A DNA stretch of 64,000 nt from Candidatus Chlorohelix allophototropha. Lineage in GTDB: Bacteria > Chloroflexota > Chloroflexia > Chloroheliales > Chloroheliaceae. Under the pieces are notes generated by a model. It made no database searches and was not told the origin of the DNA. It saw nothing but the letters and a program-made list of their open reading frames with translations. Positions 11,553 through 22,825 of the stretch are shown in pieces; position 1 is the first letter of the stretch; each line of letters starts with the position of its first letter. The translations under genes were made by a program, and so were the position numbers. Location of the stretch: assembly GCF_030389965.1 (NCBI RefSeq), contig NZ_CP128400.1, positions 1,674,001 to 1,738,000 of the forward strand. The letters are read 5' to 3'.

Positions 11553-12764
11553 TTAGTCTTCCTTCCCGGCGCTAGACGGTTTATGACTCTTAATAATCAG
11601 GTCAACGTTTTCCAATGAAATAGGCTCAAGCCCTGCCGCGTGCCGCACTTTTTCAGTGATGATAGCAATGTCGGCATCTTCCAGTTCCAGTTCTAATTCA
11701 CGGACACGGGCGGCGATAGCATGTTTACCGGTAATGCGGCTGGCAATATCGAGGGTACGGCGGATACCGAAATCTTCGGGTCGCAGCACTTCGTAAGCCT
11801 GACTGTCCTGCAAAATCGCTTTAGTGTGGATTCCGGCTTTATGAGTAAAAGCATTCGGGGCAGTGATCGGCATATCATGCGGAATAGGTACGCCCAGTAT
11901 GGTCGCTACCATTTTATCCAACTTGGGCAATTCCACCAGATTATATTGCTTGACCAATTCCCGATCGAGTGAATAGAGACGCGATACCAATCCGCTCAAG
12001 GAGCAGATACCGTTGCGTTCGCCTATACCCATAACCGTAACGTTGATACAGTGTGCGCCGGCTTCCATCGCCGCAAGGGCGTTTGCCACCCCACACCCGG
12101 TATCGTTATGCCCGTGAAACTCAACTTTGAATCGGAAGCGTTTGGTAAATTCCAATATGCGGTCGTACACTTCAAACGGGGTTGCCCCTCCCACAGTATC
12201 CGGGAAATCCACCTGATCTACGCCAGCTTCATCCAGCGCAGCGCAAATGTAAAGAAGGTCTTTGAGGTCGGTGCGGAAGGCATCTTCTGCGCCAAAGCGC
12301 GCGAAACGCCCCTTACTATGTACATACTCTACCATATTACAGGCGAGTTTTGAAACTTCCTCAACACTTTTGCCGTGGCTGGCTTTCTGAAGGAACTTAC
12401 TGGTACCCATGAAAAGGTTGATACCATAAGCGCCGGTTTCGAGCGCCATATCCACATCTTCCTGATTGACGCGACAATGCACCAGCACCTTGCTGTTCGA
12501 ATTTCTCTTTTTAAGCTGGCTTACCATAGTAGTAAGCTCTTCTAATGCATTCGGATAACTGACGGGCGAACCTACTTCAATGTAGTCAACACCAAACCGC
12601 GCCAATGCGGTGGCAATTTCGATTTTCTGTGGGAAAGAAAAATGGGCGCGGCTGAATTGCTCGCCCTCGCGTAACGTGGTATCTAGAATCTCCACGCTTT
12701 TGATATTCGTGCGGCGCGGGGTTATGCCGTTCGCCGCCGCGTTTTGTGGTTCGGTGTCCTCCAT
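11553..12764 (-). CDS. Homocitrate synthase
   Basis: About 403 residues of the DRE-TIM metallolyase family. The N-terminal barrel has DTTLREGEQFS (metal-binding Asp and catalytic Arg), the helix IEVGSPVSYP, the metal-binding FHGHNDTGCG, and GIGERNG. The overall pattern, including GTSKFLQKASHG and FTHKAGIHTKAIL, follows the Thermus-type homocitrate synthase more closely than isopropylmalate or citramalate synthase. The reaction is acetyl-CoA plus 2-oxoglutarate to homocitrate, the first step of the AAA lysine pathway. The ATG at 12764 has GAGGAG just upstream; a TTG four codons earlier overlaps that site and is unlikely. It lacks the long LeuA allosteric domain. It heads an operon with lysX. 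Confidence 0.88.
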   Translation of the reverse strand: MEDTEPQNAAANGITPRRTNIKSVEILDTTLREGEQFSRAHFSFPQKIEIATALARFGVDYIEVGSPVSYPNALEELTTMVSQLKKRNSNSKVLVHCRVNQEDVDMALETGAYGINLFMGTSKFLQKASHGKSVEEVSKLACNMVEYVHSKGRFARFGAEDAFRTDLKDLLYICAALDEAGVDQVDFPDTVGGATPFEVYDRILEFTKRFRFKVEFHGHNDTGCGVANALAAMEAGAHCINVTVMGIGERNGICSLSGLVSRLYSLDRELVKQYNLVELPKLDKMVATILGVPIPHDMPITAPNAFTHKAGIHTKAILQDSQAYEVLRPEDFGIRRTLDIASRITGKHAIAARVRELELELEDADIAIITEKVRHAAGLEPISLENVDLIIKSHKPSSAGKED

Positions 12765-19544: not shown

Positions 19545-19931
19545 CTAATGGATATAATAGGAAGTGTCAGGAGGATATTCTCTATTCAAGGGTGGAAAAT
19601 ACTCCCTCAACTTAGATAATATATACGGTTTGGTAAGAGTTCCTTTAAGCTTGATACTTGAAGTATCTAGTAACTCATTCTCATAATTCGTAAAAATTAC
19701 AAACTCAGCCGTTTCCATGTTTGGAAGTGATTGAATCTTCTTACAAGTAGCAAGGCAGGACACGGAGTCAAGAATATTATCTATAACTAAAGCCTGCGGT
19801 TTGTAAGCATTTGCCCTCATATAACCTTCAGCATAACTACGGGCTTCAACCACTTTGTAGCCGTTCATTTCAAAAAATGTACAGACTAGTTTTCTCAAAA
19901 GAAAATCTTCATTAATAACAAGAACTACCAT
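19545..19931 (-). CDS. Stand-alone receiver-domain protein (paralogue 1)
   Basis: 128 residues: one CheY-like receiver domain and no output domain. The usual double-Asp is changed to NED (MVVLVINED). The phospho-acceptor Asp is kept in ALVIDNILDS, the switch Thr in VIFTNYE and the Lys in LTKPYIL. I set the start at 19931 because AAAGGAAT lies before that ATG and the paralogue at 22322 begins at the same point; the longer frame reads into the leader. The two paralogues share GYxVVEA, CxKxxQSxPxMET and TKPxIL. With the hybrid kinase between them it may form a phosphorelay. A conserved structured leader precedes it. Confidence 0.8.
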   Translation of the reverse strand: MVVLVINEDFLLRKLVCTFFEMNGYKVVEARSYAEGYMRANAYKPQALVIDNILDSVSCLATCKKIQSLPNMETAEFVIFTNYENELLDTSSIKLKGTLTKPYILSKLREYFPPLNREYPPDTSYYIH

Positions 19932-19960: not shown

Positions 19961-20083
19961 ATAAAAATATGGGGGGGGGGTGAGTTAGCACCGCCCCCTG
20001 ATTGAATATTGTGGCTTTAAACTTACCTATCGCGCCGTTGCGATAGGGCAAATAATGCAATCTGCTGCGACGATGCAGTAGGT
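19961..20083 (-). promoter_or_regulatory. Conserved structured leader of receiver gene 1 (candidate RNA attenuator)
   Basis: In gene direction three elements occur. The first is a CTGCA-type hairpin near 20078-20061. The second is CCTATCGC / GCGATAGG at 20026-20047, followed by the conserved GTAAGTTTA and GCCACAAT. The third is a GC-rich hairpin with loop GCTAAC at about 19971-20000, followed by a T-rich run. The same elements in the same order precede the second receiver gene at 22705-22825. This copy carries a run of ten C on the coding strand (19971-19980). Hairpin plus T-rich tail resembles an intrinsic terminator within a leader. The gene-free rest (20084-20559) shows no further feature. 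Confidence 0.6.
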
Positions 20084-20559
20084 CGAATCAAGATATGTCC
20101 AAAAAACTGGGGCGAAACACAAAAGTTAGATGTATTATTAGGAGGATACGCTCTAAACGTTTATACTATGTTATAAGTTAAGTATAACTAATAAGCCGCT
20201 ATTATTCTAGCTGAATATAACTTAAATTAATATTCTTTTATTGTTATACAAAAAAAGGAATCGGAAAAATCAAAATCGCCAACCCGTTGGTTATTACAGT
20301 GAGGCGGTTTTGAATTAGAAACTTAGCCTCTGTATGAGCGATTCAGAAACAACCAAAGGGATACAATATAAGCTATAGGCATGCTATAATTTAAATGTAT
20401 AAATAATTGGTTGCTTTACATTTCTAGCCTTCGATTCGCACCCTTTCTAACTCTTAAACTTATTTATAAGCCGTTTTAGCTGCAAGCATTGTGGTTACTC
20501 CACCTATTTTTACAGACCATTGATATTGTGTGCAAAGGCAGGAAAAAGGTGGCATCTAT

Positions 20560-22212
20560 ATGGATTACGATATTTCTAACCAGCAACTTCATAAGGAACT
20601 AGAACGGTTGCAGCAGCGCATTACCGCACTGGAAAAGGACGCGGATATACGCAAAGCCTACGTAAAGTTGTTGCTCAAAGAAAAAGAGCTGCTGGCTATA
20701 ACTTTACGTAGCATCGGTGACGGGGTGATTACCACCGATACGCAAGGGTTAGTAGTGATGATGAATCCGGTTGCCGAAACCCTTACAGGCTGGAACATTG
20801 CCGAGGCACAAAACAAGCCGCTACGAGAAGTATTCCATATTATCAGTGAGAAAACAGGCAAAGAGGTGGAGAACCCGGTTCAAAAGGTGTTGGATACCGG
20901 ACTTATCAGGGGCTTGGCTAATAGCACCCTTTTGATTAGTCAAGAAGGTAATTCACGGGTCATCGCTGATAGCGCCGCGCCGATTATTGATACGATTACC
21001 GGTCAAATATTGGGGGTAGTGCTGGTCTTTCGAGATGTTACCCACGAACGTAAACTGGAATTAGAAGTAGCCCGCGCCGAAAAGCTAGAGAGTGTGGGAA
21101 TACTGGCTGGCGGTATTGCCCACGATTTTAACAATGTTTTGACCTCGATAGCCGGAAATATCTGGCTGGCTAAGCTGGCATCCAAAGACCAGAAATCGCT
21201 TGAAGTAGAGGACTTGCTGGCAGAAGCCGAAAGCCAAACTTTCCGAGCTAAGGAATTAACCCACCAGTTGCTAACCTTTTCCAAAGGGGGCGCACCCATC
21301 AAAAAAATTTCGTCGCTACAGGAGTTGGTGCGAGAAACAGCTATTTTTGCCTTGCACGGGTCGAATGTACGCTGTGTCTTTGCCTTACCGGAGGATTTGT
21401 GGGTAGTGAATATTGATACCACTCAGATAAGCCAAGTAATAAATAACCTGATTATCAATGCCGACCAAGCAATGCCGGAAGGTGGCATTATTACGATTAC
21501 CGCTGAGAATGTGCTGGCGAACAGTGTCGTTAGGCAGGATGAGCCAATGCTATTAAAAACGGTTGATTACGTGAAGGTCTCAATCCAAGACGGGGGTATC
21601 GGTATCAGTCAGGAAGCTTTAACTAAAATATTCGAACCATACTTTACTACCAAGTCCAGCGGAAGCGGTTTGGGACTGGCGACCTCTTTTTCGATTATCA
21701 GTAAGCACAAGGGTTTTCTGGGGGTGACTTCAGAACTTGGCAAAGGCGCTACTTTCTTCCTGTATTTGCCAGCCCTTTCTGGAGAAGTGGTTGCACCTCT
21801 TGAGAAAGAAGTTGGGAAAAAGCTGGTTTCGATGTATGGAGGCAAAGTTCTGATTGTAGATGACCAGAATGATATTCTCGTATTATTGAAACGAGTGCTT
21901 GGTCTTGTGGGGTATGAGGTTATAACCGCCCTTGATGGGGCAGTGGGAATTGAACTTTACCGGGAGGCGTTAGAGAGCGCTAATCCTTTCCAAGCGGTGA
22001 TATTGGATTTAACCATACCGGGTGGGATGGGCGGCAAGGAAACCATCCAACGCTTATTAGCGCTAGACCCTCAAGTAAAAGCAATAGTTACGAGCGGTTA
22101 TTCGGATGACCCGATTTTGAGCAATTTTGAGGCATATGGGTTTAAGGGTGCGCTGGGTAAGCCTTTCAAGTTTTTGGAACTGCGCGAGAAGTTGGACGCA
22201 ATGCTGGCATAA
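20560..22212 (+). CDS. PAS hybrid histidine kinase with C-terminal receiver
   Basis: About 550 residues, soluble. A short coiled coil (QQLHKELERLQQRITALEKD) leads into a PAS domain (about 50-165: ITLRSIGDGVITTDTQGLVVMMNP, then VVLVFRDVTHERKLE). An NtrB-like HisKA follows, with the phospho-acceptor His in GGIAHDFNNVLTSI. The HATPase domain has NNLIINADQAMPEGG, GGIGIS and SGLGLATSFSI. The C-terminal receiver has KVLIVDDQND, the acceptor Asp in VILDLTIPGG and GKPFKF. I start at the ATG at 20560, which has AAAAAGGTGG upstream; a GTG ten codons earlier is possible. It lies between two stand-alone receivers on the opposite strand, its plausible phosphorelay partners. Confidence 0.9.
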   Translation: MDYDISNQQLHKELERLQQRITALEKDADIRKAYVKLLLKEKELLAITLRSIGDGVITTDTQGLVVMMNPVAETLTGWNIAEAQNKPLREVFHIISEKTGKEVENPVQKVLDTGLIRGLANSTLLISQEGNSRVIADSAAPIIDTITGQILGVVLVFRDVTHERKLELEVARAEKLESVGILAGGIAHDFNNVLTSIAGNIWLAKLASKDQKSLEVEDLLAEAESQTFRAKELTHQLLTFSKGGAPIKKISSLQELVRETAIFALHGSNVRCVFALPEDLWVVNIDTTQISQVINNLIINADQAMPEGGIITITAENVLANSVVRQDEPMLLKTVDYVKVSIQDGGIGISQEALTKIFEPYFTTKSSGSGLGLATSFSIISKHKGFLGVTSELGKGATFFLYLPALSGEVVAPLEKEVGKKLVSMYGGKVLIVDDQNDILVLLKRVLGLVGYEVITALDGAVGIELYREALESANPFQAVILDLTIPGGMGGKETIQRLLALDPQVKAIVTSGYSDDPILSNFEAYGFKGALGKPFKFLELREKLDAMLA

Positions 22213-22321: not shown

Positions 22322-22672
22322 CTATTTCAAATCTGGAAAATGCTCTTTCATCTTAGGCAATATGTTGGGCTTGGTAATAGTTGCTTTTAGATTGATACTG
22401 GCGGCAGTTTCAAACTCATCATCATAGTCAGTAAAAACTACAAACCCCGTCGTTTCCATACCGGGAATTGACTGCATAGTCTTACAAACATTAAGGCAAG
22501 AGATTGAGTCAATAAGGTTATCCACTGCCACAAGCTGTGGTTTGTACTTAATTGATTGTAAATAGCCTTCTTCACATGTAGCTGCTTCAACCACACTATA
22601 GCCACGCAGTTCAAGGAATCTACTCAATGATTTTCTAAAAACATCACTTTCATTTATAACTAAAACTACCAT
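22322..22672 (-). CDS. Stand-alone receiver-domain protein (paralogue 2)
   Basis: 116 residues, a single CheY-like receiver. It begins MVVLVINESDVFRK, with NES in place of the normal double Asp, which may weaken Mg binding. The acceptor Asp position reads LVAVDNLIDS, the switch Thr is in FVVFTDYDDE and the Lys is in ITKPNIL. It matches the protein encoded at 19545 along its length. AAAGGGAA precedes the ATG. There is no output domain, so it may be a phosphate shuttle or sink, or act by protein contact. The same structured leader precedes it. Confidence 0.8.
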   Translation of the reverse strand: MVVLVINESDVFRKSLSRFLELRGYSVVEAATCEEGYLQSIKYKPQLVAVDNLIDSISCLNVCKTMQSIPGMETTGFVVFTDYDDEFETAASINLKATITKPNILPKMKEHFPDLK

Positions 22673-22704: not shown

Positions 22705-22825
22705 CAAGAAAATAATGGGGTGGTGGGTTAGCGCCACCCCTGACTGAGGATTGTGGCGGTAAACTTACCTATCGCGCCATTGAGATAGGCAGTAAAATCC
22801 AATCTGCTGCAACGATGCAGTAGGC
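22705..22825 (-). promoter_or_regulatory. Conserved structured leader of receiver gene 2 (candidate RNA attenuator)
   Basis: In gene direction: CTGCA / TGCAG hairpin (loop TCGT), then CCTATC / GATAGG (22768-22789), then GTAAGTTTACCGCCACAAT, then a GC hairpin with GCTAAC in its loop (22717-22740), followed by a T-rich run. In this copy CGCCAC can also pair with GTGGCG, which would break the last hairpin, as expected of an antiterminator. Unpaired blocks are better conserved between the copies than stems. Between it and the tRNA promoter (22826-23277) I see no gene. Confidence 0.6.

Follow-up and report, generated by a model that had tools for sequence, protein, structure and literature searches.

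A structured leader before seven stand-alone receiver genes of Candidatus Chlorohelix allophototropha, probably an ANTAR-controlled transcription attenuator

Among the features described for ANTAR targets, the signature consists of two hexaloops, each having A1, G4 and a closing C-G pair (PMC3369931; PMC8934654), and EutV no longer exerts control when A1 or G4 is mutated, when one of the stems is disrupted or when the linker is changed in length (PMC3369931). The linker between the two stems is allowed to be 2-25 nt (PMC8164766), and the minimal site has been redefined as one hexaloop (NAR 2022, PMC8934654). Overlap of the second hairpin (P2) with the terminator belongs to the attenuation subtype only (about 30% of the published hits in ANTAR-encoding organisms). 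Most of the actinobacterial ANTAR RNAs have no terminator after them, and the published 'focused' models fail outside their own phylum (PMC8164766). In the literature searched, we found no report of ANTAR antitermination in Chloroflexota or on stand-alone receiver genes. In the present study, we compared with these systems a leader that had been predicted to be an undescribed RNA attenuator. The structured leader of attenuator type, with compensatory changes, was supported, but the word 'undescribed' is probably wrong in kind. Judging from sequence, we consider it probable that the leader is a transcription attenuator under the single ANTAR response regulator of the cell, with a regulon of seven receivers, because it carries the dual A1/G4 hexaloop signature (in full in five of the seven copies) and the genome encodes one ANTAR protein; it is probably not an unknown riboswitch.

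The genome comprises five contigs (6.09 Mb), and the window, which is the whole stretch of 64,000 nucleotides that was analysed, covers positions 1674001-1738000 of contig C2. Leader copy 1 lies in the divergent gap between receiver 1 (minus strand) and a hybrid histidine kinase (plus strand), and receiver 2 is found on the far side of this kinase from the gap. The genes and leader copies are as follows, in window coordinates:

19545-19931, minus strand: receiver 1, a stand-alone REC protein (Pfam PF00072, E 3e-9)
22322-22672, minus strand: receiver 2, a stand-alone REC protein (Pfam PF00072, E 8e-9)
20530-22212, plus strand: hybrid histidine kinase, PAS-HisKA-HATPase-REC, between receivers 1 and 2; contig C1 has a matching module whose kinase is a paralogue of 96% identity
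19964-20083, minus strand: leader copy 1, from P1 to the U-rich tail, upstream of receiver 1 (alignment; match to covariance model R2, 128.6 bits)
22707-22825, minus strand: leader copy 2, upstream of receiver 2 (R2 match, 130.5 bits)

No convincing sigma-70 promoter site was found. When the two receiver-kinase-receiver modules are compared, the hybrid kinase (20530-22212 and L009:2724-4406) is 96% identical, whereas the receivers flanking it are only about 40-67% identical; this points either to a much higher rate of divergence in the receivers or to gene conversion that holds the two kinases together.

The hairpins and unpaired blocks at 19961-20083 of the minus strand were found as the original prediction described them, with the second copy at 22707-22825. 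The leader is indeed shared by the two receiver genes of the window, but its number had been underestimated: a nucleotide search, confirmed by R2 (113-131 bits), revealed seven copies in the genome, and all seven stand directly upstream of a paralogous stand-alone receiver gene (116-131 aa), the placement that had been expected. An eighth receiver paralogue (L047:2110-2520, C1:2823645), adjoining a gene that we take to be phoU-like, has no leader and its upstream region is AT-rich. In the 7-row alignment, 94.6% of the pair cells of the P1, P2 and terminator helices are standard pairs, compared with 39-64% when the helices were slid by 1-3 columns as controls. Two-sided changes are present in P1, P2 and the terminator, at four pairs (alignment columns 8-17, G-C to U-A; 43-52, G-C to A-U; 96-105, C-G to U-A; 97-104, G-C to U-A), and the covariation score of the alignment was reached by none of 500 shuffles. 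The z-scores of the leaders in single-sequence shuffling ranged from -2.3 to -5.5. Among the five main copies, the identity is 80% in the leader, 72% in the receiver coding DNA, 60% from the U-tract to the start codon and 58% at 70-220 nt upstream. The claims that the stems vary while keeping their pairing and that the flanks differ are thus borne out, and the evenly spread identity without compensation that had been named as the mark of simple duplication was not what we found. The leader is structured, real and functionally constrained.

A leader peptide was considered and rejected, as there is no conserved start codon and the frames are broken differently between copies; copies 1 and L002 happen to be open in frame. 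The distance from P1 to the ATG is 151-174 nt; about 100 nt lie between the end of the hexaloop motif and the start codon, and the motif stays clear of the ribosome-binding site.

The expectation of many copies across Chloroflexota failed. A homologous leader was not found in 40 relatives or in 300 other genomes of the phylum, in which the weak matches were plain terminators (E near 0.001-1). Close receiver paralogues are limited to this genome among the 41 searched and ANTAR proteins occur in 33 of these 41, and the leader therefore represents a use of an old regulator that is specific to this lineage. We give only a small chance to the explanation that each receiver was duplicated along with the DNA upstream of it (with gene conversion), the only working part being a plain terminator or an mRNA-stabilising hairpin. 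All copies do lie in one genome beside paralogous genes with no homologue elsewhere in the phylum, and the near-identity of the kinase adjoining two of them indicates that recent exchange occurs; however, conservation is higher in the leader than in the coding DNA or either flank, the two-sided changes extend over P1, P2 and the terminator, and even the most divergent copies (6 and 7) retain P2 and the antiterminator pairing.

For the ANTAR reading, the leader offers two tandem stem-loops, each stem having 3 bp or more, in which 94-96% of the cells are paired. P1 is CUGC-AYCGUY-GCAG, so that a hairpin does exist where a 'CTGCA hairpin' had been proposed, in another form, and P2 is CCUAUCNC-AAYGGC-GNGRUAGG. 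The hairpins of the window copies are:

20061-20082, minus strand: P1 of copy 1, hexaloop AUCGUC (20069-20074) with A1, G4 and C-G closing pair (alignment)
20026-20047, minus strand: P2 of copy 1, 8 bp, hexaloop AACGGC (20034-20039) with A1, G4 and C-G closing pair; the same loop occurs in eut operons
22803-22824, minus strand: P1 of copy 2, hexaloop AUCGUU (22811-22816) (alignment)
22768-22789, minus strand: P2 of copy 2, hexaloop AAUGGC (22776-22781), with one internal mismatch after the closing pair (alignment)

The P2 hexaloop AAYGGC has A1, G4 and the C-G closing pair in 7/7 copies, and the P1 hexaloop AYCGUY has them in 5/7, including both window copies. In the remaining two (L006 and L007, copies 6 and 7) the P1 loop is of 5 nt (UUGGG) without A1/G4, P2 alone qualifies, and P2 is not extended; because of the short P1 loop and the unextended P2, these two copies may not be inducible, may be of a single-hexaloop kind or may have degenerated. 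The gap between P1 and P2 is 15-17 nt for strictly paired stems (about 14 nt when the outer pairs of P1 are counted), inside the 2-25 nt linker range. In the Markov-shuffled window, dual A1/G4 hexaloops whose stems have 4 bp or more arise at a rate of about 0.25 for each 64 kb strand, or one in about 256 kb, and the strict rule found two in the real window, the leader and one inside a coding gene. The latter (12572-12611, minus strand) is within a coding ORF and was judged to be chance. The string CAAYGGCG occurs 11 times in the window, and only the two leader occurrences are borne on hairpins.

In the five main copies, 4-5 nt of the P1 loop are complementary to the P2 loop (hairpins at 20061-20082 and 20026-20047, minus strand, in copy 1); nearly all of the variation keeps G-C or G-U, the exception being the outermost pair in L001, and the minimum-energy fold of L002 uses this pairing of P1 with P2. 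The complementarity may be a kissing contact or chance. We know of no kissing contact between the hexaloops of ANTAR targets.

It is rather unlikely that the A1/G4 hexaloops are coincidental and that the leader is an undescribed attenuator without ANTAR, in which a riboswitch for a small molecule or an ion, or a different RNA-binding protein, works the same terminator and antiterminator. This explanation draws on sequence conservation beyond the helices (GUUUA, GCCACA and, in the terminator loop, CUAAC), on the two copies whose P1 has no ANTAR loop, and on the loop complementarity, which ANTAR targets do not require and which the fold of one copy uses. On the other hand, the conservation outside the helices could be common ancestry of the paralogues, two such hexaloops at the right spacing are rare by chance, the P2 loop is among the commonest of the eut ANTAR loops, and a matching ANTAR protein is present in the genome.

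As a yardstick for the ANTAR reading, EutV homologues were taken with 10 kb flanks, and the dual hexaloops of their operons gave 78 loops. Among the commonest are AAUGGC (9) and AACGGC (4), which are C-G closed and identical to the Chlorohelix P2 loop AAYGGC (13/78 together). Furthermore, CACAACGGCGUG of copy L005 fits the eut P1 consensus CACAAYGGCGUG. The P1 loops of the leaders carry Y at position 2, which is nearly always A in eut loops. With the eut (EutV; Enterococcus, Listeria, Paenibacillus) and nasF/amiE systems the leader shares tandem A1/G4 hexaloop hairpins (both of them in five of the seven copies), C-G closing pairs, a short linker, an intrinsic terminator before the gene and a REC-ANTAR protein in the genome. 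In contrast to them, its P2 does not overlap the terminator, the mutually exclusive pairing being provided by a separate GCCAC/GUGGC helix, and its targets are stand-alone receivers and not nitrogen or ethanolamine genes. A further difference from eut is that the eut-trained model does not find the Chlorohelix leaders. Covariance model R3, built from 23 eut-type duals, gave them no significant score (best 12.5 bits, E 0.1, aligned via P2 only), and in the genome search, in which the matches were chance-like and mostly inside genes, no leader was among the ten best. R3 fails on whole leaders because the eut P2 consensus AAGCAAAGAGGCUU is absent from them; this agrees with the failure of the published 'focused' models outside their phylum, yet it is a negative result.

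The statement that the leader fits no known riboswitch class was correct, as no Rfam family matched it at gathering or relaxed thresholds; its likeness to Rfam riboswitch and leader families lies in leader position and terminator. On the eut loci bearing the motif, Rfam reported a cobalamin riboswitch only and nothing of the ANTAR kind; hence its silence on the Chlorohelix leaders is no evidence against ANTAR. In the EutV loci of Compostibacillus and Virgibacillus (L063:9404-9547, L064:7958-8037), runs of at least three successive hexaloops were observed, which are possibly EutX-like sponge RNAs.

PF03861 matches exactly once in the genome, in a REC-ANTAR protein of 210 aa (C2:1832654, 83.7 bits). 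In the PDB this protein is closest to Rv1626 (1s8n, 213 bits), followed by EutV (142 bits), and it is of the PdtaR/EutV type. When read against the list of EutV RNA-contact residues (PMC8934654), R142, K143, K149, E160, M172 and R175 are kept, K147 is replaced by R and Y164 by F, and R168, N173 and R177 are changed; Rv1626 also differs from EutV, with D for N173 and T for R177. Two HisKA_2 kinases are encoded in the genome, one of PAS type and one of GAF-GAF type, and either could be the ANTAR partner. The closeness to Rv1626 and the fit to the linker and loop rules (PMC8164766) are points of likeness to the actinobacterial (PdtaR/Rv1626) RNAs, from which the leader differs in that most of those targets extend over the ribosome-binding site or into the coding region, and a terminator follows only a few of them.

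Downstream of P2, the window copies contain the following elements:

20011-20016, minus strand: 5' strand of the proposed antiterminator helix of copy 1, GCCAC block, the helix being weakest in this copy (alignment, energies)
19974-19997, minus strand: terminator-like hairpin of copy 1, CUAAC in the loop, whose 5' arm (19989-19994) doubles as the antiterminator 3' strand (alignment)
19961-19973, minus strand: U-rich tail of copy 1 (T count after the stem)
22753-22758, minus strand: antiterminator 5' strand of copy 2, CGCCAC, with its partner GUGGCG at 22732-22737 (alignment)
22717-22740, minus strand: terminator-like hairpin of copy 2 (alignment)

After the GC-rich hairpin (columns 89-112), 7/7 copies have 6 or more T within 8 nt, compared with 4% of background positions. 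The last hairpin had been said to look like a terminator, and the U-tract supports this, although the stem is imperfect, with an internal mismatch in three copies; because of this imperfection, a strict terminator scanner called no terminator in either window copy. In both window copies about 28 nt separate P2 from the start of the terminator, and the two do not overlap. The proposed antiterminator pairs CGCCAC (columns 68-73) with GUGGCG (92-97) in 95% of the cells. In copies 6 and 7 its outer pair is A-U in place of C-G, and column 97 there retains its terminator partner as well; the covariation of this helix alone is not significant (reached by 70 of 500 shuffles). GUGGCG serves as both the terminator 5' arm and the antiterminator 3' strand, so the pairings are mutually exclusive, and together with the GC-rich stem and the U-tract this gives the leader the make-up of an intrinsic terminator/attenuator. 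In addition, the linker can pair with the GCCAC region and lengthen P2 in five copies. The predicted energies are -0.6 (copy 1) to -8.6 kcal/mol for the antiterminator and -11.7 to -17.4 kcal/mol for the terminator; with the antiterminator the weaker one, the switch would have to be kinetic or protein-assisted. In copy 1, the 3' arm of the terminator consists of a ten-G homopolymer at 19971-19980 (read as C10 in the transcript), which is a candidate slippage or sequencing-error site.

An ANTAR target acting on translation or RNA stability, like the actinobacterial ones that overlap the ribosome-binding site, is very improbable here: in its favour are the P2 hairpin, which stays clear of the terminator, and the lack of a terminator after most actinobacterial ANTAR RNAs (PMC8164766), but the GC hairpin and U-tract are present in every copy and the motif does not reach the ribosome-binding site.

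For the attenuator under ANTAR control, the following switch is proposed. By default, the GC hairpin and U-tract would stop transcription before the receiver gene, and in the free RNA the GCCAC block would be tied up in the extended P2 stem while the terminator forms. The ANTAR protein, phosphorylated probably by an orphan HisKA_2 kinase, would bind the P1 and P2 hexaloops during their transcription, and we infer that this binding prevents the P1-P2 linker and the GCCAC block from being drawn into the extended P2 stem. The freed GCCAC would then pair with GUGGC in the terminator 5' arm and lead to read-through, and one ANTAR protein would in this manner switch on seven paralogous stand-alone receivers. 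Against this reading stand the 5-nt P1 loop in L006 and L007, the separation of P2 from the terminator, the failure of R3 to recognise the leaders, the weak antiterminator of copy 1, the non-significant covariation of the antiterminator helix taken alone and the Y at position 2 of the P1 loops; the element is also confined to one genome.

What sets the leader apart from the ANTAR leaders known so far is its phylum, its target genes and the lack of overlap between P2 and the terminator, which a separate GCCAC/GUGGC antiterminator helix appears to connect. We put forward only tentatively, as a possibility, that this is a new architecture, in which hexaloop binding by ANTAR (or P1-P2 kissing) acts at a distance via the separate antiterminator helix and a single ANTAR protein controls a lineage-specific receiver family, one two-component system regulating the parts list of another. 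If the ANTAR reading is true, ANTAR antitermination extends to Chloroflexota and to an arrangement with protein-binding hairpins and terminator not overlapping. The regulon would consist entirely of receivers: in a phototroph of the Chloroflexota that has a type I reaction centre, a single two-component regulator would determine the levels of seven others, and the lone ANTAR protein of the genome gains a concrete, testable target set. It would also suggest that Rfam is without a model for this class.

Receivers 1 and 2 and the five others retain the phospho-acceptor D51, T81 and K101, and in the same seven the usual acidic D-D pair is replaced by N plus E/D/G/N; from these residues, the leader-borne receivers are possibly atypical or weakly phosphorylated. 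At L008:1442-4421, two leader-receiver copies lie in tandem and adjoin a rubrerythrin-family gene, which presumably resembles AcsF of bacteriochlorophyll synthesis, hinting at a link of the leaders to phototrophy. Finally, genes for PF04226 (transglycosylase-associated) small membrane proteins are located near receiver copies in both parts of C2 (17717-17992 and L010:2450-2782).
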